Source of the DNA: a virus
IMG/VR virus record: IMGVR_UViG_3300021425_000014
Location: 1-64,000 of that record
Length of the DNA stretch: 64,000 nucleotides
Reading direction: 5' to 3' (one strand)
Shown: piece by piece, positions 22,093-62,527 of the stretch
How positions within the stretch are numbered: the stretch's first letter is position 1
Layout: each line of letters starts with the position of its first letter
The notes under the pieces: generated by a model
The model's database searches: none
What the model saw: the letters and a program-made list of their open reading frames with translations, nothing else
What the model was told of the DNA's origin: nothing
Translations under genes and position numbers: made by a program

Positions 22093-22165
22093 GTTATTCT
22101 CCTCTCGTGGATATGATTAAATATTAGCACCGCAAAGAGTAGGAGTCAATAAGAAAATAGGGGGG

Positions 22166-22194
22166 TTGACGAAAGTTTTTTTACGTGCTAAACT
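22166..22194 (+). promoter_or_regulatory. Sigma70-type promoter of the rightward middle block
   Basis: TTGACG, 17-base spacer, TAAACT. It lies in the divergent region between the leftward block and the HNH gene, about 170 bases before that gene's ATG. Confidence 0.7.
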
Positions 22195-22219
22195 AATGCT
22201 CGGACGTGAGGACGAGTAT

Positions 22220-22345
22220 TTACATGATCTATATAAATATAAATATATTAAGATCTTTAATTACCATGATCTTTTATTTACATGATCTATTTACCATGAT
22301 CTATTTAAAAGATCTTATTTACCATGATCTAATTACCCATGACTT
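22220..22345 (+). promoter_or_regulatory. Cluster of ATGATCTA/GATC repeats (candidate operator array)
   Basis: Seven GATC sites at 22226, 22252, 22268, 22284, 22298, 22311 and 22326, most within TTACCATGATCTA-like repeats spaced 13-16 bases. They lie downstream of the promoter and before the HNH gene, a position suited to repression or methylation control. The TGATCT core is the same as in the motif upstream of the cassette promoters. Confidence 0.6.
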
Positions 22346-52729: not shown

Positions 52730-53678
52730 ACTGCATGAATAATATATATATTATAGATAATACCATAAGCTTATAAGGTATAAAGAATAACACGAAGGTA
52801 CAAACACTCAAGGAAAGAAAATCAAGCCCCTTCTAGGGCATTCTAGGCCCCTCTATTGAGGCCCTTACCGATCCAGTTTTCAAGCCCCCATGAAAAACCC
52901 TGTATAAACCTTTTTATTTGTCTGCTAGGGGCCCTTGAATCAATACAAAATACCCCCTTTGGGGCATCCCCAGCCTAAAAATAGCACTATAAGCCCCTTT
53001 CGGGCAGATTCTTTAAAAAATCCAGCGCCGCATAAGAGGCTGTACCATATTAAATTGTATTGTTAAGCTCTATGTTTAGTTCTTTTACTCCTCTATATAT
53101 AGTATGATATTGTATTGATACTATATATATATTATAAGTTATTATATTGTATTGGGGTTATTAGGCCCCGTTTTGTGTTGTATTGTATTGTAGACTCAGT
53201 TCGACACCTTTAGTACTTTCGCACAGCCGAGTGGAATACAATTCAATACTCTACAATGCTTATTTTAGTTCAAAGATATATATATATTATATTGTATTGT
53301 ATGGGCCCCCGTTTTCTGTGGGGTAGTTTAGACTAAAAGTTTAGGCCAACTTTTCGGGGCCCCTTACTTTGTAGTTATTAAACATGTATATATATAATAA
53401 ATAAAAACTTCGAGCCCTATATATAGGATCCCCCACTTTCTTTTAACAGCTTTATATATATAATACAATACAATACATTAGGTGCCCCGCTTTTTCACCC
53501 AACCGCGAGCGCCCTGTATTGTATCGCATCACATTGTATTACATTGTATTGTATTGCCTTGTATTGTATTGTATGACATTGTATTGTATTGGTGATGGGT
53601 GGCGGTGTGTCCTCAATACAATATAATGCAATGCGAGAGCGAGGGGCCCCGGCAATACAATGCAATCTAATGCGAGCC
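52730..53678. other. Long non-coding spacer C4-C5
   Basis: About 950 bases with no convincing ORF. Holds TATATATA tracts (for example near 52741, 53120, 53280, 53455), scattered GGGGCCCC-type stems, several forward ATTGTATTG blocks (53055, 53175, 53290, 53515-53590) and inverse CAATAC blocks (53236, 53463, 53613, 53652). May contain decayed cassettes. Confidence 0.6.
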
Positions 53679-53787
53679 TGATCTGGCCTGATCTGACACA
53701 AAAGATTTTTCTTGCAATCTTTCGCCAGATATGTTGTAATTAGATTGTCGCACAAACGAGATGCCCAAACGGGCGGGAGACAAGACC
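53679..53787 (+). promoter_or_regulatory. C5 upstream motif, promoter and hairpin leader
   Basis: TGATCTG at 53679 and 53689 (33 and 23 bases before the -35), TTGCAA (53712), 17-base spacer, TGTAAT (53735). Leader hairpin GCCC-AAAC-GGGC (53763-53774) is followed at once by GGGAG, eight bases before the TTG start. Confidence 0.7.
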
Positions 53788-54219
53788 TTGCATACAGAAT
53801 TGACCAAAGACCAAATCGCTTTCTTGCGTAAGGCACGCCACATTTACTTCAGCGCACGTCGCAATGATGACGGTGTGTTTGTTGGCCACATCGAAGCAAT
53901 CCAAGAAGATAAGGATAACCATTCCGTGGCGCGGATGGAAATCACAACACGCGCCATGATTAGTGGTGGGAACCGTGCTAACTGTTCGATCGCAATCGCT
54001 GGATTCTGTGAAGTCTGGCAAACTGTGTTAGCTTTCATCAAGTCTGGCGATTCGCTTGGCCTACGCTTTGAGGCCAACGGATTCCGCCCGTTGGATGAAA
54101 AGTACAATGACGTTAATCTTGATGTCTTGTATGTCAGTGTAGAACGGAATAATAAATTCTATAAATTCTTACTGGATGTTCACTTGACCAAGGAGGGTCA
54201 TTACCGGATCATCCAGTAA
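53788..54219 (+). CDS. Unrecognised protein (C5)
   Basis: 143 aa from TTG 53788. An ATG at 53761 is in frame but lies in the conserved leader hairpin, and GGGAG sits eight bases before the TTG, so TTG is preferred. Begins (M)HTELTKDQIAFLRKARHIYF; contains HIEAIQEDKDNHSVARMEIT and FLLDVHLTKEGHYRIIQ. Mixed alpha/beta, near neutral. Function unknown. Confidence 0.6.
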   Translation: MHTELTKDQIAFLRKARHIYFSARRNDDGVFVGHIEAIQEDKDNHSVARMEITTRAMISGGNRANCSIAIAGFCEVWQTVLAFIKSGDSLGLRFEANGFRPLDEKYNDVNLDVLYVSVERNNKFYKFLLDVHLTKEGHYRIIQ

Positions 54220-54224
54220 ACCAC

Positions 54225-54247
54225 GGGGCCCCGCAAGGGGCCCTTTT
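54225..54247 (+). terminator. C5 terminator
   Basis: GGGGCCCC-GCAA-GGGGCCC then T4. Confidence 0.9.
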
Positions 54248-54489
54248 AACTAAAGTTAATTATATTGTATTGTATTGCATTAGTTCTTTTAATTGTATTG
54301 TATTGGCGTACTGGCCTCCGAGAAATCGGGGGCCTTTACGTTTCAATACAATTCAATACTATATATTAAAAACATTGTATTGTATTGTATGTGTAATTGG
54401 TTGGCCCCGAAATCGCGGCCCTCAACCTACCAATACAATACTATAATATATATACCAAATATTAAATAAAAATAGTTTCAAAAAAGGGC
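54248..54489. repeat. C5-C6 spacer: pentamer repeats
   Basis: Forward ATTGTATTGTATTGC at 54263 and 54295, a GGCCTCCGAGAAATCGGGGGCC hairpin, inverse CAATACAATTCAATAC at 54344, forward again at 54375, inverse at 54431. No ORF. Confidence 0.75.
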
Positions 54490-54569
54490 TTGCAATGATT
54501 CTCAGGATATGCTTTAATGGTATTGTCAGGTTATGGCCCCACCTTTGAGCGGGCCCGGAGATCGGAACC
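54490..54569 (+). promoter_or_regulatory. C6 promoter and hairpin leader
   Basis: TTGCAA (54490), 17-base spacer, TTTAAT (54513). GGCCC...GGGCC hairpin (54535-54555) abuts CGGAG, which lies about ten bases before the TTG start. No TGATCTG motif. Confidence 0.6.
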
Positions 54570-54761
54570 TTGCCTAACACAAAACTTATCAGCAAGCACG
54601 GAACCAAAGATCGCGTTTTCTGCCCCCGGTGTTTGAGAGAGTTGCAGAGTGATATCAAAAGCGATATAAGTTTTTGGTTTCATTGGGCAGATAATTATCA
54701 CGCGGCTGGACACCAAACGGAAGAGCCATGCCAGCGGTATGCAGATACTTGCGGAGATTAA
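54570..54761 (+). CDS. Cys/His-rich small protein (C6)
   Basis: 63 aa, TTG start fixed by the leader hairpin and CGGAG. FCPRCLRELQ, then HWADNYHAAGH and CQRYADTC give enough Cys/His for a zinc site. Function unknown. Confidence 0.6.
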   Translation: MPNTKLISKHGTKDRVFCPRCLRELQSDIKSDISFWFHWADNYHAAGHQTEEPCQRYADTCGD

Positions 54762-54766
54762 GCCCT

Positions 54767-54789
54767 GCCCCCTTCGGGGGGCTTTTTTA
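54767..54789 (+). terminator. C6 terminator
   Basis: GCCCCC-TTCG-GGGGGC then T6. Confidence 0.9.
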
Positions 54790-54967
54790 TTATGCCTATA
54801 TATATTGGATTGTATTGTATTGGCGATCGCCATCCGCCAAATCGCGAACACTCACTCTTTGAATACAATATAATATATTAATCTTATTGCATTGTATTGT
54901 ATTAAGGCACCCCGATTCGCGGGCCCTTAAAACTTACCAATACAATACACTATAATAATAAAACCAA
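54790..54967. repeat. C6-C7 spacer: pentamers and GCGATCGC
   Basis: Forward GATTGTATTGTATTG (54808), GCGATCGC (54823-54830), inverse CAATACAATATAAT (54862), forward (54887), inverse CAATACAATACAC (54938). Confidence 0.75.
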
Positions 54968-55079
54968 AGATCTGGCTCAGATCAACATGACCTTGATCAC
55001 TTGCGCCATGCCCCCCATCGTGCTACACTAAGGTTGTTCGGTTAAGCGATGGCGCTGGACGCGCCGGGAGGTAAACGCA
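54968..55079 (+). promoter_or_regulatory. C7 upstream motif, promoter and hairpin leader
   Basis: AGATCTG (54968) and AGATC (54979), 33 and 22 bases before TTGCGC (55001); 17-base spacer; TACACT (55024). GGCGC-TGGAC-GCGCC (55051-55065) directly followed by GGGAGGT. Confidence 0.7.
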
Positions 55080-55271
55080 ATGGGTGATTTAAACTGGCCT
55101 TTCTGGCACACGCAAGAAGAGTGTGACGAGATGAACAAAACGCTTGTGGATGATATGAAAAACAACATGAGCAAGATTCTGTGGAACAACGATCATGATA
55201 CAGTTCAAGAAATTCTTTCGAGATGGGAAGAAAACACAGGCATCGATCTTCGCCTTGAGCGCGATTGGTAA
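55080..55271 (+). CDS. Unrecognised small acidic protein (C7a)
   Basis: 63 aa: MGDLNWPFWHTQEECDEMNK, helical, acidic. GGGAGG nine bases before ATG. First of two genes sharing one promoter. Function unknown. Confidence 0.6.
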   Translation: MGDLNWPFWHTQEECDEMNKTLVDDMKNNMSKILWNNDHDTVQEILSRWEENTGIDLRLERDW

Positions 55272-55286
55272 AAAGGGAGGTAAGCA

Positions 55287-55571
55287 ATGCAGACCACGCA
55301 AGTTTATAACAACGTCATCGAGGCTGTTGTGTGCAACAGCATGGCGTATGACTTTCAATTACCCATCGGCAAGTTCGATGGCGAAAGTTTACTCAAAAAG
55401 ATCTGGTTCAAGATTCAAAAGAAAGGGAATAGTAAAAGCCCTGACATCCAAATGCAGCGCGCCATGTGGCTAAGCCCTTGCAGGTTCGATGGAAGCGCTT
55501 TAAGGTCAATGGATATGAAAGGGCAATGGTGGGACACAGGCATGGAGCTTGTAGCCAAGCGAGACATTTAA
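55287..55571 (+). CDS. Unrecognised small protein (C7b)
   Basis: 94 aa, preceded by GGGAGGT. MQTTQVYNNVIEAVVCNSMA, KFDGESLLKKIWFKIQKKGN. The only cassette with a clear second gene. Function unknown. Confidence 0.6.
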   Translation: MQTTQVYNNVIEAVVCNSMAYDFQLPIGKFDGESLLKKIWFKIQKKGNSKSPDIQMQRAMWLSPCRFDGSALRSMDMKGQWWDTGMELVAKRDI

Positions 55572-55583
55572 TAGTATTGTATT

Positions 55584-55606
55584 GCCCCCCGAGAGGGGGG
55601 CTTTCT
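55584..55606 (+). terminator. C7 terminator
   Basis: GCCCCCC-GAGA-GGGGGGC then TTTC. Preceded directly by AGTATTGTATTG, so here the pentamer repeat lies before the hairpin. Confidence 0.85.
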
Positions 55607-55772
55607 CGTATGCCCCTGTGTATTGTATTGTATGGGCGGATACCCCTGCTTAATCAAAATTCAAAAAAACGCGCCGCCGCATATTCGATACAATTCAATT
55701 CAATGCGATGAATGTATGGTATTGTATTGTATAAAAACGCGGGCACTCACTCTTTGCCAATACAATACAAAC
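55607..55772. repeat. C7-C8 spacer: palindromic pentamer element
   Basis: Forward ATTGTATTGTATGG (55620), inverse GATACAATTCAATTCAATG (55687), forward TGGTATTGTATTGTAT (55715), inverse CAATACAATACAA (55759). The middle pair folds with a short loop. Confidence 0.75.
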
Positions 55773-55869
55773 AGATCTGACTCTGATCTAAACACTTGCG
55801 TCATTAATATATATCTGCTAGAATTAAAGAGTAAAGGCAAGGGCTCAAGCGAGCCGGAAAGTGAAGGTT
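55773..55869 (+). promoter_or_regulatory. C8 upstream motif, promoter and hairpin leader
   Basis: AGATCTG (55773) and TGATCTA (55784), 23 and 12 bases before TTGCGT (55796); 17-base spacer; TAGAAT (55819). GGCTC-AAGC-GAGCC (55842-55855) followed by GGAAAG. Confidence 0.7.
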
Positions 55870-56100
55870 ATGATCCCTTTTGCTGAGATTGAATTGTGGG
55901 ATGACTACGGCCACAAGAAGTGGATTGAATATGACAATATTGATGATGTCATATGGGGCCATAAATGGGATGACTCGGACGATCATGAGTGTGAGAGATC
56001 GGGTAACGTAGAAATCCACAAGCTGGGGCCCAAGGATCATTATTATTGTATTATCATGGTTAAGAAATACGGGATGCCCAAACTCGAACTCCAACTCTAA
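55870..56100 (+). CDS. Unrecognised small acidic protein (C8)
   Basis: 76 aa from ATG 55870 (GTG 55861 is in frame but too close to GGAAAG). MIPFAEIELWDDYGHKKWIE; rich in Asp, Trp and His (IWGHKWDDSDDHECE). Function unknown. Confidence 0.55.
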   Translation: MIPFAEIELWDDYGHKKWIEYDNIDDVIWGHKWDDSDDHECERSGNVEIHKLGPKDHYYCIIMVKKYGMPKLELQL

Positions 56101-56122
56101 CTTAACAGCTTTATATTGTATT

Positions 56123-56154
56123 GCCCCTCTGGCTCTGGCTGGCGGGGCACTTTT
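56123..56154 (+). terminator. C8 terminator
   Basis: GCCCC / GGGGC around a 16-base loop, then ACTTTT; weaker than most. Confidence 0.55.
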
Positions 56155-56305
56155 GCGCTCAGGCCCGCCTCGCTGTATTGCATTGTATTGTATGCCCCCG
56201 TCGTATTGCATTGTATTGTATTGGTGGCCATCGACCCACGGCAATACAATTCAATTCAATGTAAAGGTTGTATGGTATTGTATTGTATTGGTCGGATCCG
56301 GGGCC
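56155..56305. repeat. C8-C9 spacer: palindromic pentamer element
   Basis: Forward TATTGCATTGTATTGTATG (56174) and again at 56205, inverse CAATACAATTCAATTCAATG (56242), forward GGTATTGTATTGTATTGG (56273). Confidence 0.75.
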
Positions 56306-56413
56306 CGATCTGGCCTGAAAAATGTTTTCAAAAACTATTGACTTGGCCATGGACGGCATGTTACTCTTGAGGAGTCAACACAAGCGATGGCGCTGACGCG
56401 CCGGGAGGCTCAA
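56306..56413 (+). promoter_or_regulatory. C9 upstream motif, promoter and hairpin leader
   Basis: CGATCTG (56306) 32 bases before TTGACT (56338); 17-base spacer; TTACTC (56361). GGCGC-TGAC-GCGCC (56389-56402) abuts GGGAGG. Confidence 0.65.
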
Positions 56414-56782
56414 ATGCTCAAGAACATGATCGCCACGGATGCCCTGGGTGGGTTGCAGGTCAAGGTGTACCGCAACCTTCACAAGAAGTGCCTCAGCGTG
56501 TGGCATGCGGGCTATGTCGTGGCCCATGTTGACTCCATCACGCTGGATGGCGTGCTTTTCAAGGTGAACGAAGCTGGACGCCAACGCGTGTTGCGTGAGA
56601 AGAAAAAGAACGTCCACGCTTTCGTGACGGGCACAGTCACAGGCGTTAACGCGCCCCCACGGGGGGCTGTTCCCGTGTCCTACAACCCTTATAAGGGGGC
56701 TTCTTTCACCCTGCCTGATGGCCAGGCCATTATGGCGGCCGGAACGGTCACGGTGACGACCAGGGGGGCCTTCGTAGACTGA
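56414..56782 (+). CDS. Unrecognised protein (C9)
   Basis: 122 aa from ATG 56414. An in-frame ATG at 56387 would add MALTRREAQ, but those bases form the leader hairpin and the GGGAGG site seen in other cassettes. MLKNMIATDALGGLQVKVYR; NLHKKCLSVWHAGYVVAHVD; C-terminal half Gly/Thr-rich beta. Function unknown. Confidence 0.55.
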   Translation: MLKNMIATDALGGLQVKVYRNLHKKCLSVWHAGYVVAHVDSITLDGVLFKVNEAGRQRVLREKKKNVHAFVTGTVTGVNAPPRGAVPVSYNPYKGASFTLPDGQAIMAAGTVTVTTRGAFVD

Positions 56783-56897
56783 GGGCCCCGGCTCTCTTTC
56801 CCCATAGGGATCAATACAATGCAATGCAGTCCAATACAATGCAATTCAATGCAACGGTTATATTGTATTGTATTGTATGGCCCCCATCCGGGGGGGC
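56783..56897. repeat. C9-C10 spacer with terminator hairpin
   Basis: Inverse CAATACAATGCAATGCAG and CAATACAATGCAATTCAATG blocks, forward TATTGTATTGTATTGTATGG, then GGCCCCC-ATCC-GGGGGGGC (56879-56897), which lacks a T run because the TGATCTG motif starts at once. Confidence 0.7.
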
Positions 56898-57010
56898 TGA
56901 TCTGGGGCTGATCTGGGCTGAAAAATCTTTTTTGAAATCGTTGACATCTCGCTTGAAACTTGCTACTATTAAAGAGTAGTCGTTATGGCGCTGAGCGCCG
57001 GGAGGTCAAA
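56898..57010 (+). promoter_or_regulatory. C10 upstream motif, promoter and hairpin leader
   Basis: TGATCTG at 56898 and 56909 (43 and 32 bases before the -35; a degenerate TGAAAAA follows at 22), TTGACA (56941), 17-base spacer, TACTAT (56964). GGCGC-TGA-GCGCC (56987-56999) abuts GGGAGG. Confidence 0.75.
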
Positions 57011-57244
57011 GTGAAGGGCATCGACATCATTCGGGAATCGGACAACGGCGGAGAAATCATCGGATTTCGCATCAGCGCCAAGCACGGCGGATTCGGGTTT
57101 GACGTACCGCTTGTAGACTTAGTCAACGCTGAGGTGTTCACGGAAGAGAAGCGCGAGGCGCTGCTCAAGCGATACCAGGCCTACTTGGCCGATATCGTCA
57201 AAACCTGGGAGCAGCCGGGCACGGCTAATCGCTGGGATGTTTAG
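57011..57244 (+). CDS. Unrecognised small protein (C10), possible C16/C17 relative
   Basis: 77 aa, GTG start four bases after GGGAGGTCAAA. MKGIDIIRESDNGGEIIGFR, GGFGFDVPLVDLVNAEVF. The GF/GI...G...(V/I)..(L/V)DLVNA segment recurs in C16 and, weakly, in C17. Function unknown. Confidence 0.6.
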   Translation: MKGIDIIRESDNGGEIIGFRISAKHGGFGFDVPLVDLVNAEVFTEEKREALLKRYQAYLADIVKTWEQPGTANRWDV

Positions 57245-57250
57245 CCCAGG

Positions 57251-57274
57251 GCCCCCCGAAAGGGGGGCTTTTTT
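57251..57274 (+). terminator. C10 terminator
   Basis: GCCCCCC-GAAA-GGGGGGC then T6. Confidence 0.92.
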
Positions 57275-57284
57275 CGTGTGGCTT

Positions 57285-57345
57285 ATCAATACAATACAAT
57301 TCAATACAACGCGGGGGGAATATATTGCATTGTATTGTATGGGCG
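57285..57345. repeat. Palindromic pentamer element
   Basis: Inverse CAATACAATACAATTCAATA faces forward TATTGCATTGTATTGTATGG across about 15 bases: a clear stem-loop of pentamers. Confidence 0.85.
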
Positions 57346-57400
57346 GGATCGCCGTGCGCCATTCGGCCTCATCGGGCCAGCAATGCGGTGCGCAACGCAG

Positions 57401-57507
57401 CATCGCATTTAAGGGCCCTGTGAGGGCCATGAAGGGGCTTATAGGTATCCGGGAGGGTGATTGTACCCTGAACGCCATCAGGGGCCTTTACGGGCCTTGT
57501 GGTGGCT
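57401..57507. ncRNA. Structured element copy 1 (AGGGTGATTGTACC core)
   Basis: Core 57454-57467 with AGGGT/ACCCT inner arms and flanking TTTAAGGGCCCTG...GGGGCCTTTACGGGCC. Conserved with three other copies at 59.0, 60.75 and 61.55 kb. Lies just upstream of the C11 motif. Could be RNA or DNA structure; no homology known to me. Confidence 0.5.
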
Positions 57508-57606
57508 TGATCTGGAATAAAAAGTTTTTCTTGACATCCAATGATGGGGTTGATATGATGAAAGAGTCAGGCAAACGAGATGGCGCTGACGCGCCGGGAG
57601 GTCGAA
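57508..57606 (+). promoter_or_regulatory. C11 upstream motif, promoter and hairpin leader
   Basis: TGATCTG (57508) 23 bases before TTGACA (57531); 17-base spacer; TATGAT (57554). GGCGC-TGAC-GCGCC (57582-57595) abuts GGGAGG. Confidence 0.75.
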
Positions 57607-57768
57607 ATGATGGTAAGCTTTCAGGAAGAAGAAAAGGGATTCTTGGTAGCGGTGACTGAAGACGATTTCGTCTTCATTCCCGTTCAGAACGGGAACCGCG
57701 TAGCCGCCTTCGAAGAGGCGATCGAGCAGCTTAACGAATGGTTCTATGCATCACTTAAATACAAGTGA
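57607..57768 (+). CDS. Unrecognised small acidic protein (C11)
   Basis: 53 aa from ATG 57607; an in-frame ATG at 57580 belongs to the leader hairpin. MMVSFQEEEKGFLVAVTEDD, AAFEEAIEQLNEWFYASLKY. Acidic. Function unknown. Confidence 0.6.
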   Translation: MMVSFQEEEKGFLVAVTEDDFVFIPVQNGNRVAAFEEAIEQLNEWFYASLKYK

Positions 57769-57774
57769 TGCGAG

Positions 57775-57796
57775 GCCCCCGAAAGGGGGCTTTTTT
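57775..57796 (+). terminator. C11 terminator
   Basis: GCCCCC-GAAA-GGGGGC then T6. Confidence 0.92.
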
Positions 57797-57924
57797 CGTG
57801 CCAATCATCAATACAATACAATTCTATACAATCACTGCATCGCATTGTATTGTATGGGGAAGAATCGGGGGGCCATACCTACTTCCCTTTGAATCACCAA
57901 TACAATACAGTTTAATATATGACC
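57797..57924. repeat. C11-C12 spacer: pentamer repeats
   Basis: Inverse CAATACAATACAATTC (57808), forward GCATTGTATTGTATGGGG (57842), inverse CAATACAATACAG (57898). The first pair folds. Confidence 0.8.
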
Positions 57925-58047
57925 TGATCTGGCCTCAAAATATTTTTAAAATAGTTTCTGAAAAGGGGTTTACATTCCCAGGTGAAACGGGTATGATATT
58001 AATGTAAGGGTTAAGCGACACCCCTGAGTCGCGGAGAACAGACCACC
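57925..58047 (+). promoter_or_regulatory. C12 upstream motif, promoter and hairpin leader
   Basis: TGATCTG (57925) 44 bases before TTTACA (57969); 17-base spacer; TATGAT (57992). GCGAC...GTCGC hairpin (58015-58032), a stem unlike the other cassettes, abuts GGAG. Confidence 0.7.
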
Positions 58048-58284
58048 ATGGCTATCTTCAATGTTGTAATGGTTAAGGATCCGATGATGGCCCCCGTGCT
58101 CGTTGAGCAGCACAAAGTCGAGAGCCTGAAAGAGGCTCGTAAGATCCTCAGCCAGTGGGCTGAAGATGGGGACAAAATAGTAGCCCTCAAGAAGGCGCCG
58201 CTTCCCTCAGGGCGCCACGTGACGCCACTGGTTATACAGACGATGGAAGAGGATTCCGATATCTTCGGACAATACATAGATTAA
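58048..58284 (+). CDS. Unrecognised small protein (C12)
   Basis: 78 aa: MAIFNVVMVKDPMMAPVLVE, ESLKEARKILSQWAEDGDKI, then a beta-rich end. Mixed alpha/beta. Function unknown. Confidence 0.6.
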   Translation: MAIFNVVMVKDPMMAPVLVEQHKVESLKEARKILSQWAEDGDKIVALKKAPLPSGRHVTPLVIQTMEEDSDIFGQYID

Positions 58285-58288
58285 GCGA

Positions 58289-58315
58289 GGGGCCCCGCGA
58301 GGGGCCCTTTTTTTT
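58289..58315 (+). terminator. C12 terminator
   Basis: GGGGCCCC-GCGA-GGGGCCC then T8. Confidence 0.92.
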
Positions 58316-58484
58316 ATGCCCCTGTGTATATTGCATTGTATTGCCAGGGCGATCGCCCATCGGGACTTATCAATACAATTCAATGCAACCAATGTATTGC
58401 ATTGTATTGGACGGGGGCCCCGGCGAGCTTGCGCCAAATCGCGCGCCCTTACTCTTTGCAATACAATACAATCTAATTCATACC
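58316..58484. repeat. C12-C13 spacer: two facing pentamer pairs and GCGATCGC
   Basis: Forward ATTGCATTGTATTGCC (58330), GCGATCGC (58349-58356), inverse CAATACAATTCAATGCAA (58371), forward TATTGCATTGTATTGG (58394), inverse GCAATACAATACAATC (58458). Confidence 0.8.
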
Positions 58485-58611
58485 TGATCTGACCTTGATC
58501 TGACACAAGTTGATTTATTTGACATCCTTCCCGATAGTTGTTATTATAAAAGAGTCAAGGCAAGCGGGCCCGACGCCCGCCAGATGAACCCCAGGGGTTC
58601 GGGAGGTAAAC
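58485..58611 (+). promoter_or_regulatory. C13 upstream motif, promoter and two-hairpin leader
   Basis: TGATCTG at 58485 and 58496 (34 and 23 before the -35), TTGACA (58519), 17-base spacer, TATTAT (58542). Hairpins GCGGGC/GCCCGC (58564-58580) and GAACCCC/GGGGTTC (58586-58600); the second abuts GGGAGG. Confidence 0.78.
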
Positions 58612-58833
58612 ATGACCATCACCATTGCCGTTGTTATCGCTGTGCTTACATTTGCGCTGGGCATGTCGCTCGGCGTGAGCCTTCAGCAATCATACGGTAA
58701 TCGTACCGAAAGAATTTTATATGAGGCGTACCGCCAGGCGCGGGATGAGGCCCTTCACCTTGAAAGGAAAATCGCCACGGGCGAAAGTTTTAGGAGAAAC
58801 GTCATCCGCTCAATAAAGAAAATCTCAGACTAA
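58612..58833 (+). CDS. Small membrane protein (C13)
   Basis: 73 aa. N-terminal helix MTITIAVVIAVLTFALGMSL, then a basic helical tail with RQARDEALHLERKI. Function unknown; inner-membrane location likely. Confidence 0.6.
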   Translation: MTITIAVVIAVLTFALGMSLGVSLQQSYGNRTERILYEAYRQARDEALHLERKIATGESFRRNVIRSIKKISD

Positions 58834-58837
58834 CACA

Positions 58838-58864
58838 GGGCCCCCGAAAGGGGGCTCTTTTTTT
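58838..58864 (+). terminator. C13 terminator
   Basis: GGCCCCC-GAAA-GGGGGCTC then T7. Confidence 0.92.
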
Positions 58865-59198
58865 ATGCCTGTTAATATATTGCATTGCATTGTATTGTTA
58901 GCCCCCCTTTTCTTCGTGCGTTCGAAACATCCGATAAGCCCCACAGCGTAGCACCCTTTTAAAGCGTGCTGTGAGCCCGTTAAACGCGTTTCAGGGGGGT
59001 GGGTAGGGTGATTGTACCTTAGAACAATTTAAACGCCTTTAAAGCCCGTATGTTTAATCAATGCGATCGCCCATAGAAGATCAATACAATTCAATTCAAT
59101 GCAGCCGTGGTATCGCATTGTATTGTATGGACACAGGGCAGGGGCAAAAGCGGGGCCCGTCACTTTTTGCAATACAATATAATTATATATAAAAGGGT
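58865..59198. repeat. C13-C14 spacer: pentamers, structured element copy 2, GCGATCGC
   Basis: Forward ATTGCATTGCATTGTATTG (58879), element copy 2 (core AGGGTGATTGTACC at 59005-59018, flanks 58978-59052), GCGATCGC (59063-59070), inverse CAATACAATTCAATTCAATG (59082), forward ATCGCATTGTATTGTATGG (59112), inverse GCAATACAATATAAT (59169). No ORF. Confidence 0.75.
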
Positions 59199-59290
59199 TG
59201 ATCTGGGTTGATCTGGTTTAGTTGACATCATAAGCCTGGTTTGATATGATTAAAGAGTAAAGGTTATGGCCTGATGGCCGGGAGGTTCTA
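59199..59290 (+). promoter_or_regulatory. C14 upstream motif, promoter and hairpin leader
   Basis: TGATCTG at 59199 and 59209 (23 and 13 before the -35), TTGACA (59222), 17-base spacer, TATGAT (59245). GGCC-TGAT-GGCC (59268-59279) abuts GGGAGG; the leader ATG GCC TGA forms a two-codon ORF. Confidence 0.78.
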
Positions 59291-59545
59291 ATGCGCGAGT
59301 ACGTGGGCAATGTCGAGGATCTGTGGGAAAACCCTTTCGATGGCTATTGCCGTGCGCTTGACCGTTATGACCGCTTTGCGGTCTATGAACGGGACACGGA
59401 CGGGTATGGATTCCCGATCTATCATTGCTGGTCAAGCAAGGAGCAGGAAACCATATGGTTCACAAGAGAGGACGCCGCCATGCGCTGGTGTCAAAACATG
59501 ATGGTTGCCCTACGACTTGAGGGGCATTATATCTGGATGGTTTAA
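59291..59545 (+). CDS. Unrecognised small protein (C14)
   Basis: 84 aa: MREYVGNVEDLWENPFDGYC, RYDRFAVYERDTDGYGFPIY, TREDAAMRWCQNMMVALRLE. Aromatic-rich, acidic. Function unknown. Confidence 0.6.
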   Translation: MREYVGNVEDLWENPFDGYCRALDRYDRFAVYERDTDGYGFPIYHCWSSKEQETIWFTREDAAMRWCQNMMVALRLEGHYIWMV

Positions 59546-59547
59546 CA

Positions 59548-59575
59548 GGGGGCCCCGCAAGGGGCCTCTTTTTTT
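59548..59575 (+). terminator. C14 terminator
   Basis: GGGGCCCC-GCAA-GGGGCC then TC and T7. Confidence 0.9.
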
Positions 59576-59584
59576 ATTGCCATA

Positions 59585-59640
59585 AGTCCATACAATACAA
59601 TTCAATAACTTGATTAGATTGCATTGCATTGTATTGCCCC
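59585..59640. repeat. Palindromic pentamer element
   Basis: Inverse CATACAATACAATTCAATAA faces forward GATTGCATTGCATTGTATTG across a ~10-base loop. Confidence 0.85.
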
Positions 59641-59650
59641 GATACCGGGC

Positions 59651-59760
59651 TGATCTGGTCTGATTTGACAAGAAAAGTTTTTCTTGACATCCCGCTTGCG
59701 ATTTGCTATTATTAAATTAGTCAAGCAAACGAGATGGCGCTGAGCGCCGGGAGGTTGAAA
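59651..59760 (+). promoter_or_regulatory. C15 upstream motif, promoter and hairpin leader
   Basis: TGATCTG (59651) and TGATTTG (59661), 33 and 23 before TTGACA (59684); 17-base spacer; TATTAT (59707). GGCGC-TGA-GCGCC (59736-59748) abuts GGGAGG. Confidence 0.78.
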
Positions 59761-60084
59761 ATGGCAAAGCAACTTTGGTACGACATCAACAAGTTTCACG
59801 AAGGAAAGAATGTAGCCGATTGCCTTATCGGCACTGCAAGCCGCGAGGATCTGCACCATTATTTCTTGGTGCTGAATCGCTACAATGACACCAAAACGGG
59901 ATACCTCCCTGGGGCATATCTTGAAAACCCAGAAAAAGATTATGTACTTGTGTCGGGAACGGAAACTACTGAAGAAATCGAAAGTTTCATGAAAAAAATT
60001 GTCCAGTGGTCACTGGAGGATAAGGATTTTTCGGAAGAATTCAACGAAAGAACAAGACAGCTTGAAAAGGAATTCCAAGCTTAA
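59761..60084 (+). CDS. Unrecognised acidic protein (C15)
   Basis: 107 aa from ATG 59761; an in-frame ATG at 59734 lies in the leader. MAKQLWYDINKFHEGKNVAD, then YLENPEKDYVLVSGTETTEE and a strongly charged helical end. Function unknown. Confidence 0.6.
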   Translation: MAKQLWYDINKFHEGKNVADCLIGTASREDLHHYFLVLNRYNDTKTGYLPGAYLENPEKDYVLVSGTETTEEIESFMKKIVQWSLEDKDFSEEFNERTRQLEKEFQA

Positions 60085-60089
60085 AGCCA

Positions 60090-60112
60090 AGCCCCCGCAA
60101 GGGGGCTTTTTT
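60090..60112 (+). terminator. C15 terminator
   Basis: AGCCCCC-GCAA-GGGGGCT then T6. Confidence 0.92.
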
Positions 60113-60245
60113 CTTGGCTTACCTTCCATACAATACAATGCAATTTAATGATTGTATGGGATTGTATTGTATTGATTAGTGGCAGGGCGCTAAAGGGCGA
60201 TCGCCCATCGCGGCACAGCAATACAATGCAATGAGATACATCACC
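60113..60245. repeat. C15-C16 spacer: pentamers and GCGATCGC
   Basis: Inverse CATACAATACAATGCAATTT (60127), forward GGGATTGTATTGTATTG (60158), GCGATCGC (60197-60204), inverse CAATACAATGCAATG (60220). Confidence 0.8.
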
Positions 60246-60356
60246 TGATCTGGCTTGATCTTAAAATGTTGACATCAGGTGTGCCAGATGTTATTATTAA
60301 ATAGTCAAGGCGACGGGGCGCTGCCCCAAGATGGCCCCAGTGGCCGGGAGGTTCTA
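60246..60356 (+). promoter_or_regulatory. C16 upstream motif, promoter and two-hairpin leader
   Basis: TGATCTG (60246) and TGATCTT (60256), 23 and 13 before TTGACA (60269); 17-base spacer; TATTAT (60292). Hairpins GGGGC-GCT-GCCCC (60315-60327) and GGCC/GGCC (60333-60345), the latter abutting GGGAGG. A leader ORF ATG GCC CCA GTG ... TAA ends on the gene's ATG (TAATG). Confidence 0.78.
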
Positions 60357-60563
60357 ATGTTGGTTGACGCGATCAAGCTCAAGGGCAAAGGTTCTGACGC
60401 GGCTGATCCCGCTTATGGGATCGCTTTCACCGATAAGGATGGGGTCATCCTCGACATCACCGTCGAGGATCTGGTGAACGCTGCGGCGTTGCACAACCCA
60501 TACCTTGACAAGGTGTCGTACCAAAAACATATCGAGCGTTGCATCGAAAGGATTTTCGAATAA
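60357..60563 (+). CDS. Unrecognised small protein (C16), related to C10
   Basis: 68 aa: MLVDAIKLKGKGSDAADPAY, GIAFTDKDGVILDITVEDLV. The segment GIAF..(K)DG..LDI.VEDLVNA parallels C10 (GFRI..KHGGFGFDV..VDLVNA). Function unknown. Confidence 0.6.
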   Translation: MLVDAIKLKGKGSDAADPAYGIAFTDKDGVILDITVEDLVNAAALHNPYLDKVSYQKHIERCIERIFE

Positions 60564-60568
60564 AGCCA

Positions 60569-60591
60569 AGCCCCCGCAAGGGGGCTTTTTT
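60569..60591 (+). terminator. C16 terminator
   Basis: AGCCCCC-GCAA-GGGGGCT then T6, a near copy of the C15 terminator including CTTGGC downstream. Confidence 0.92.
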
Positions 60592-60807
60592 CTTGGCACA
60601 TGTTCAATACAATACAATTCAATGCGTTTAAGTTATTACATTGCATTGTATTGGCGATAAACCGTGCCCCCGGCGATCGCCCGTGGCGTCGTACACCACG
60701 ACATCGCGTTTAAGGGGCCTGTGAGGGCCGTAAAGGGGCCTCTCGGTGTCTGGCAGGGTGATTGTACCCTAGCAGGGTTCAAGGGCCTTTACGGGGCTCC
60801 TGTGGCC
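60592..60807. repeat. C16-C17 spacer: pentamer palindrome, GCGATCGC, structured element copy 3
   Basis: Inverse CAATACAATACAATTCAATG faces forward TTACATTGCATTGTATTGG (60604-60652). GCGATCGC at 60673-60680. Element copy 3 at about 60709-60800: core 60755-60768, outer arms CGTAAAGG (60729) / CCTTTACG (60786). Confidence 0.8.
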
Positions 60808-60935
60808 TGATCTGATGGTTGATCTGGAGTGAAAGATTTTTGTTGACATCCTGTGACCGGCTTGCTATGATGAAATAGTCAAGGCGACGGGGCCCGATGC
60901 CCCGGTTATGGCCCCCAGGGGGCCGGGAGGTAAAC
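60808..60935 (+). promoter_or_regulatory. C17 upstream motif, promoter and two-hairpin leader
   Basis: TGATCTG at 60808 and 60820 (35 and 23 before the -35), TTGACA (60843), 17-base spacer, TATGAT (60866). Hairpins GGGGC/GCCCC (60889-60903) and GGCCCCC/GGGGGCC (60910-60924), the latter abutting GGGAGG. Confidence 0.78.
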
Positions 60936-61190
60936 ATGACCATGATCGTTAACAAAGAGTACACCGTAAAGCTGGCTATAAACGGTAGCCAAGATCCGGT
61001 GGATCCAGTGGGAACCTTGAGGTTCCACGGTTTCACCGTTATCGGTGAAAACGGCGAAGAATTCTTCGTCGACTTTCAGGACTTGGCCAACGGTCGCCAG
61101 GTCGATGAAAAGTTCGACGTGACGATCTTGTGGCGGCTCAGTGAGTTCTACAAGTCACAGTTTCTCAAGGTTATCGGCGAGAAACTGTAA
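60936..61190 (+). CDS. Unrecognised small protein (C17)
   Basis: 84 aa: MTMIVNKEYTVKLAINGSQD, GFTVIGENGEEFFVDFQDLA then NGRQVDEKFDVTILWRLSEF. The GF....NG..F.VDF.DLANG segment resembles C10 and C16 weakly. Function unknown. Confidence 0.6.
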   Translation: MTMIVNKEYTVKLAINGSQDPVDPVGTLRFHGFTVIGENGEEFFVDFQDLANGRQVDEKFDVTILWRLSEFYKSQFLKVIGEKL

Positions 61191-61197
61191 CCCAAGG

Positions 61198-61222
61198 GCC
61201 CCCCGCAAGGGGGGCTTTTTTT
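61198..61222 (+). terminator. C17 terminator
   Basis: GGCCCCCC-GCAA-GGGGGGC then T7. Confidence 0.92.
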
Positions 61223-61882
61223 ATTGCCCCCTATTATATGGCATTGTATTGTATTGCCCCCGGCATATAGCCCCTCCCCATCAATGCCCCTGTTAATCAG
61301 AAAAATAAATGTTTCACGCGCCGTATATTATAAAAATAATCGTTCGGTGGCCCCGAATGGCGGCCAATACAATTCAACACAATTCAATTCAATTCTAAAA
61401 CATTTTATTGCATTGTATTGAAAAAAGTTTCTGGGGGTGCGCAAAAAGCGGGAAGATTAATTCCCCACATTTTTCACTCAACCCTTAAAACTTAACACCC
61501 TTTTCTTTGCGTACAGAATGGCGTTAAACACGTTTCAGATACCACGGCAGGGTGATTGTACCTTGAACGATTTTCAGGCACCTTTACGGGGCTTGCGTAG
61601 GCTGTTTTAAATTTAACTCACATCAGGCTTGTTCAACTTGACGTTGAATTGACACAGCCTGAAAAATCCCATACAATACAATTCAACACATGGGGCCATG
61701 ATCATGAGTTTTCCCCATGTATAGGATCCCCAACTTTCGACCAATAGCTTTAAAAACCCTTTCCCGCTTTCGATCGCCAGCCCCGGCGCACAGGGCGAAA
61801 AAAGTCGATTTTTGCTGTATTGTATTGTATTGTATTGTTAACCTAACCTTACCCTCATCTTAACCTGTTCTTAACCTTCGAT
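61223..61882. other. Non-coding stretch with pentamers and structured element copy 4
   Basis: Forward GGCATTGTATTGTATTGCC (61240), inverse CAATACAATTCAACAC then AATTCAATTCAATTC (61365-61395), forward TTATTGCATTGTATTG (61405). Element copy 4 has its core at 61549-61562 (flanks 61521-61600). Inverse CATACAATACAATTCAACAC at 61670 and forward (TGTAT)n at 61816-61838, then AACCTAACCTTACCCTC. No ORF. Confidence 0.6.
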
Positions 61883-62293
61883 GTCAACTAAGAGATCTTT
61901 AAGAGATCGTTAAATTTAGGTTAAATTTTGGTGTAAAATATTTTACCATATTTCGTCGAAAATGTCAATTAAAAGATCTTTAAAAGATCTTAAAATTTAG
62001 GTTAAATTTTGCTACCACGAAAATCCAGATCTGTCAACTAAATTTAGGTTAAAGATCTTTAAATTATGGTTAAATTTTACGATCACAGATCTCGTCGAAA
62101 GTCAATTAAATTTGAGTTAAAGATCTTTAAGTTTAGGTTAAGTTTTACGATCAGATTTTTCGTCGAAAGTCAATTAAAAATAAGTTAAAGATCTTAAAGG
62201 TTTGGTTAAATTTTACAGGCACATTTTTCACCGAAAGTCAATTAAATTCAGGTTAAAGATCTTTAAGATTTGATTAAACTTTTTTCGTCGAAA
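61883..62293. repeat. Six iterons of 68-81 bp, candidate origin or partition site
   Basis: Units begin GTCAAYTAAA at 61883, 61964, 62033, 62101, 62169 and 62237 (spacing 81, 69, 68, 68, 68). Each carries RGTTAAAGATCTTTAA-like palindrome(s) with a central GATC, then GGTTAAATTTTA, and most end CGTCGAAA. AT-rich, no ORF. Iterons plus an AT-rich flank (62314-62360) are typical of replication origins; partition or enhancer roles are also possible. Confidence 0.75.
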
Positions 62294-62303
62294 AAAATCA
62301 GAT

Positions 62304-62527
62304 GAATCGGATTTTGTCAATACTTTTTTACAATTTGTAATATTCCTGATCAGTAATATTTGTTGTCAGATCCGCAACGTGACAACAAAAAAAAATCATG
62401 GAAAATCTAATATGTCAATGGTTCAGATCAAGCTCAGATCATGTGAGTCTCATGCACTCAACATGTTGCCACGGCGGAAAAATCATGCGAATCGGATTTT
62501 GTCAAGCTTTACATTGCTTCACATTAT
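62304..62527 (+). promoter_or_regulatory. Repeated GAATCGGATTTTGTCAA with possible promoters, and a dyad
   Basis: The 17-mer occurs at 62304 and 62489. In both, TTGTCA is followed after 17 bases by a weak -10 (GTAATA at 62337, CATTAT at 62522). Between them, AATATT-C-CTGATCAG-T-AATATT (62339-62360) is a 22-base dyad. No gene follows closely, so transcripts, if any, would be non-coding. Confidence 0.4.

Follow-up and report, generated by a model that had tools for sequence, protein, structure and literature searches.

The minimal replication origins of phage T4, such as oriF and oriG, span about 100 bp and consist of a promoter and a downstream AT-rich unwinding element (PMC3016281). In the chromosome II origin of Vibrio cholerae (oriII), the sites of the initiator RctB each hold a GATC, and RctB binds them well only if they are fully methylated (PMC2865523). 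Methylation-dependent control is also known at phage promoters such as P22 gtr and Mu mom (PMC2909390), and the packaging site (pac) of P1 contains seven TGATCA/G repeats (PMC10028697). Dam-like genes are common in phages, often with an unclear role: what T4 Dam does in vivo is not yet settled (PMC12707154). GATC methylation by the Dam-like enzyme of phage KASIA has been shown by experiment (PMC8541194). Among the 50,697 records searched here, 803 match the Dam-like gene of the virus described below. A phage in which GATC is undepleted, and is concentrated in control DNA and in two promoter-fed arrays, offers a concrete place to ask what a phage Dam does.

The array considered here lies in a 95,012-base virus record, of which bases 1-64000 form the window, that is, the 64,000-nucleotide stretch presented above. 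The first 100+ bases of the record are found again at 94873, which gives an end overlap of 140 bases, and the genome was therefore treated as circular, with 94,872 bp. The virus is a myovirus of bacteria, with tail sheath, TerL and portal among its genes and with a UvsX-like recombinase, a DnaE-type polymerase, a DnaB-like helicase and a primase for replication; a search for a close named phage found none. At the 22.2-kb site leftward genes give way to rightward genes, and two candidate promoters stand there back to back, of which the leftward one would serve the thyX/uvsX/terL operon. The features are collected in Table 1. An 85-aa protein adjoining the array has a predicted structure of low confidence and was left out of the argument.

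Table 1. Location of the array at 22.2 kb, its counterpart at 67.8 kb and the other GATC-bearing features (genome coordinates).
Feature	Position	Strand	Remark
Candidate leftward promoter, TTGACT-17-TAATAT with TG	22121..22149	-	consensus match only
Promoter match TTGACG, 17 bp, TG-c-TAAACT (extended -10), G run in front	22166..22194	+	9/12 consensus match
Seven-GATC array and one decayed unit (CCCATGACTT)	22217..22345	+	AT 81%, 5' leader
HNH endonuclease gene, 167 aa	22361..22864	+	first gene after the array
Dam-family (D12) adenine methylase, 268 aa	35623..36429	+	replication module, between DnaB-like helicase and primase
Cassette promoters with GATC boxes CYTGATCTG upstream of -35	about 53678..60843	+	
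68-bp iterons containing AAAGATCTT	61885..62275 (61.88-62.30 kb)	-	
Paired TGATCTG boxes 11 bp apart and TTGACA	62413..62440	-	cassette-like layout, directed into iterons
Second array, seven GATC	67769..67872	-	beyond the 64-kb window; promoter-array unit no. 2 spans 67.77-67.89 kb
Second promoter match, TTGACG-17-TACGAT with TG	67955..67927	-	consensus match

Two arrays behind two like promoter matches

The preliminary description had drawn attention to seven GATC within about 105 bases at 22.2 kb, and the count bears this out: they start at 22226, 22252, 22268, 22284, 22298, 22311 and 22326, seven in 104 bp, with spacings of 26, 16, 16, 14, 13 and 15 bp. When the entire 94.9-kb genome was simulated 60 times by a Markov-3 model that keeps its 4-mer statistics, the maximum in any 105 bp was three to six GATC and never above six. 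All seven are GATCT, five of them in CATGATCT and two in AAGATCT. The repeat unit is longer than the bare GATC, being an oriented unit of about 14.7 bp in which (T)TTAC(C)ATGATCT alternates with TTAAAAGATCT. The array sits in the leader of the HNH gene and begins about 25 bp past the rightward promoter match, from which, judged by its letters, the HNH gene and the rightward operon would be transcribed.

The second array, at 67.8 kb, is 87% identical to the first across about 67 bp and lies in the opposite orientation. Its GATC are spaced by 15, 14, 30, 15, 14 and 15 bp, and the unit period of about 14.7 bp is seen in both arrays (R=0.99 at 67.8 kb and 0.88 at 22.2 kb); no helical phasing at 10.5 bp was found for the 22.2- and 67.8-kb units (R=0.09 and 0.17). 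In the two arrays together, 14 units all end in GATCT, ten as CATGATCT and four as AAGATCT, and ahead of this core stand TTTAC(C), TTAC(C) or comparable AT-rich letters. Direct reading reveals two more unit positions where the GATC is lost, CCCATGACTT near 22339 and AAGGTTCTCTC at 67.8 kb, and GATC is thus retained in 14/16 unit positions. In either copy, every unit lies past the predicted start site and has one direction relative to its promoter.

Both promoter matches have a G run before the -35 element. Their elements and spacing are alike, but the sequence outside them aligns poorly between the two places. Since such promoter matches are not clearly more frequent in the genome than in shuffles, what carries the argument is the likeness of the two promoter layouts. 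No open frame was found after the 67.8-kb array; consequently, the array is not merely the leader of a gene. A leader peptide was also considered and rejected: by direct reading the frame from 22224 stays open for about 44 codons, but the units are not spaced by multiples of three, and the frame in the second array is closed early. On the plus strand, a two-gene operon (66912-67722), encoding a winged-helix protein and a phrog_984 protein, ends just before the second array. The winged-helix protein (66912-67154) has an AlphaFold pLDDT of 77, and its nearest match, a weak one, is a winged helix of the TFE-alpha type.

The computed duplex stability sets the two arrays apart from the rest of the genome: in 94,872 bp, no other 130-bp stretch is as unstable as these two. 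Among 110 promoter-like sites, the 130 bp downstream are least stable at the two array promoters (-1.094 and -1.111); the mean is -1.308 (sd 0.091), and the third-lowest value is -1.179. At both arrays, the strongly destabilised AT-rich stretch comes directly after a promoter, as identified by consensus match.

Relatives carrying the array were sought by exact pattern scans of viral contigs and bacterial genomes, which returned only coding repeats or unrelated short matches, and by scans guided by the DNA polymerase, HNH and ThyX proteins, which found none. The TerL search gave four true relatives (65-85%), whose contigs of 5-6 kb end before the 22.2-kb region, and alignment of the UvsX-like protein recovered one of these relatives, together with distant matches only.

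GATC in control DNA, the methylase and the cassettes

In non-coding DNA, GATC occurs 87 times against about 43 expected (2.01-fold, Poisson p=3e-9), which is the highest excess of the 16 palindromic tetramers there, while in coding DNA it is at expectation (0.97x). With the arrays, iterons and cassettes removed, the non-coding count is still 39 against 25 (p=0.006). This enrichment makes GATC-centred control sites look real; it should be noted that a protein motif containing GATC would yield an equal non-coding excess without any methylation. Genome-wide, CATG (0.66) and GTAC (0.63) are depleted and GATC is not, hinting at host restriction at those two sites; in non-coding DNA, CATG shows no depletion (1.24).

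Three further statements of the preliminary description, on a D12-class methylase at 35.6 kb, on GATC in most cassette upstream motifs and on GATC in the iterons, hold up. The methylase is a member of the Dam family: it scores 139.2 bits against NCBIfam 'dam' TIGR00571 (cut-off 114.85) and 113 bits against PF02086 (cut-off 22), and keeps the E. coli Dam motifs NRxGYNGxxRxNxxGxFNxPxG and DPPY, with DpnM similar. Its DPPY and NRFGYNGVIRFNKSGKFNTPFG align with EcoDam and DpnM, and the alignments (1.3e-16 for DpnM, 7e-14 for EcoDam) span DPPY and the GATC-reading loop NG-x-x-R-x-N-x-x-x-F-N-x-P-x-G. D12 enzymes with targets other than GATC exist, and the sequence comparison makes GATC the likely target of this one. 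A second, unrelated DNA methylase (N6_N4_Mtase, 372 aa) is encoded on the minus strand at 64700-65818 of the genome, with a TGATCTG about 60 bp ahead of its start; a 40% identical homologue lies right behind the terminase-portal block in the relative contig L153.

In the cassettes, GATC lies no more than 46 bp upstream of the -35 element at 8/8 strong promoters (at least 10/12), compared with 2/23 promoter-like sites elsewhere, and the boxes are often paired, at 10-12 bp from each other. GATC precedes -35 by 12, 22, 31-34 or 42-43 bp, with a period of 10.25 (R=0.92); 0/5000 random sets were equally good, and the phasing holds when the nearest box alone is used. Such placement is the signature of a factor that contacts RNA polymerase from one face of the helix, implying an activator, and predicts one to look for. 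GATC is not required in every box, since TGATTTG replaces one box of a pair at about 59662. The cassettes are flanked by CAATACAAT / TATTGTATTG repeats, which are dense and occur in both orientations (window 53000-61900). The cassette gene at 56387-56782 is a member of the mycobacteriophage L5 gp82 family (PF25735, 5.6e-30), and no Pfam family was found for the other cassette genes that were scanned.

The iterons, each read on the minus strand, carry GATC 10 and/or 20-21 bp upstream of TTGAC. They can be read as promoter-like units on that strand, with TTGACA-17-TAAAAT at 61968. Based on this layout and on the paired boxes that are directed into the iterons, cassettes and iterons may share one factor.

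The suggestion that one regulator acts both at 22.2 kb and in the cassette array, in contrast, is weakened. The base after GATCT is G in 15/17 cassette boxes but in 0/14 units of the 22.2- and 67.8-kb arrays (p=5e-7), the motif CYTGATCTG is distinct, and the cassette boxes stand upstream of their promoters with helical placement, whereas the array units follow the start site with a period of about 14.7 bp. Of the earlier idea of methylation-linked control, the GATC-centred sites, backed by the non-coding enrichment, and the Dam-family gene are supported, and the single shared regulator is not. The wider picture, in which the programme of a lytic phage would be run via GATC-centred sites in promoter-fed unwinding arrays, helically placed cassette boxes and iterons, its own Dam setting their state and the methylation of new DNA timing origin firing and cassette expression, appears unlikely to us.

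A possible opening site and its alternatives

On the reading that we favour, the 22.2-kb site combines a promoter with a downstream array of easily unwound, oriented units to which a phage protein would bind, and it would act as an opening or initiation site, probably for replication. The probability of this reading is put at roughly 0.36, and an operator array downstream of the promoter is a close rival. RNA polymerase would start at about 22201 and transcribe the AT-rich array, a phage protein recognising the repeated (T)TAC(C)ATGATCT/AAAGATCT unit would bind it, and the opened array could permit a replication start that is either RNA-primed (R-loop) or based on helicase loading, as at T4 oriF/oriG. 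The occurrence of like unit arrays behind like promoters at two places supports this reading, as do their extreme instability, the regular unit spacing, the lack of an open frame behind the 67.8-kb copy and the position of the 22.2-kb site at the change of gene direction; the low stability could, however, be incidental, following from the AT-rich repeat. Dam sensitivity would be a plausible addition to the main claim, by analogy with the V. cholerae RctB 12-mers; as the phage encodes a Dam-type enzyme, methylation tuning of the site is a reasonable, unproven idea.

The minimum of the cumulative GC skew, at 22105, is close to the 22.2-kb site; a shift in strand asymmetry would be expected of an origin that fires in both directions, although it does not define the T4 type. 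However, the strand-corrected skew at fourfold sites does not single out 22.2 kb, with a gain of 11 compared with 38 for a split at 3/66 kb. Therefore, the minimum may only mirror gene direction, and skew as proof of an origin was not upheld after correction for gene strand. No DnaA box was found near the 22.2-kb array, and no initiator family among the ORFs scanned, several of which have no family. Identity of the units with oriC 13-mers was rejected, since the best match, 10/11, is nothing unusual against the background of this genome. The iterons at 62 kb compete with the arrays as a candidate for the origin.

If the units were instead operators, a regulator would bind them cooperatively and block or tune the promoters at 22166 and 67955, in the manner of clustered operators or stoperators, and Dam methylation may lower or raise the binding. 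The regular spacing and common orientation of the units, and their position past the predicted start site at both places, would suit such an array, as would the winged-helix protein, whose operon has its 3' end next to the second array, and the precedent of P22 gtr and Mu mom (PMC2909390). On the other hand, no gene stands behind the second promoter, and the 14.7-bp spacing sets neighbouring sites on different faces of the helix. We regard this explanation as a tentative possibility.

AT-rich tandem repeats are known to expand by slippage, and the arrays might be a repeat of this kind, copied between two places, with no function and with its GATC incidental. The likeness of promoter layout and orientation at both places, the GATC kept at most unit positions and the general excess of GATC in non-coding DNA make this doubtful.

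Still less probable is an element at the RNA level, in which the leader RNA, or a plus-strand antisense RNA from 67.8 kb pairing in trans with the 22.2-kb leader, would control the HNH operon. Because the arrays are nearly alike in opposite orientation, read-through of the 66912-67722 operon would give an RNA complementary to that leader, but the leader folds no better than shuffles (z=-0.55) and no Rfam family was found there.

Finally, a P1-like packaging site, at which Dam methylation of clustered TGATCN hexamers licenses cutting by a headful terminase, is very improbable, since P1 pac identity was rejected on layout, position, composition and missing homologues: the seven TGATCT/AGATCT hexamers, the phage Dam gene, the adjoining HNH gene and an end overlap compatible with a circularly permuted genome recall P1 (PMC10028697), but the P1 site is split, with four hexamers and then more beyond a 96-bp gap holding the cut and IHF sites, and lies inside pacA, while the units here are evenly spread behind a promoter, 4-5 kb from the terminase genes, PacA/PacB homologues are absent among the ORFs (no significant blastp or phmmer match), and two arrays half a genome apart would mean two pac sites.

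Comparison with described systems

The likeness to P1 pac is thus confined to seven TGATCN-type hexamers and a phage-encoded Dam; the array here is unsplit, lies outside the terminase gene and has an AT content of 81% compared with 52%. With KASIA (PMC8541194), the phage shares a Dam-family gene in the replication module; GATC is the likely target of the present enzyme and the experimentally shown one in KASIA. GATC sites at a phage promoter recall Mu mom and P22 gtr, where, however, GATC overlaps the regulator sites and host Dam acts, whereas the array here lies downstream of the promoter.

There are also likenesses to two kinds of origin. Compared with the 11/12-mer iterons of RctB, the units differ in length and spacing and no RctB homologue was identified, yet they too are tandem units of near-constant length (11-15 bp), each holding a GATC. 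Compared with T4, there is no known MotA-type box, the site is a candidate origin only, and the array is an ordered GATC repeat, which is dispensable in T4 unwinding elements. As at oriF and oriG, however, some 100-130 bp of highly unstable, AT-rich DNA come immediately after a promoter, the genome holds more than one such site, and the phage has its own helicase, primase and UvsX-like recombinase. Since the arrays unite the promoter and unwinding element of T4 with the GATC-bearing units of oriII, a promoter-driven opening site is favoured.
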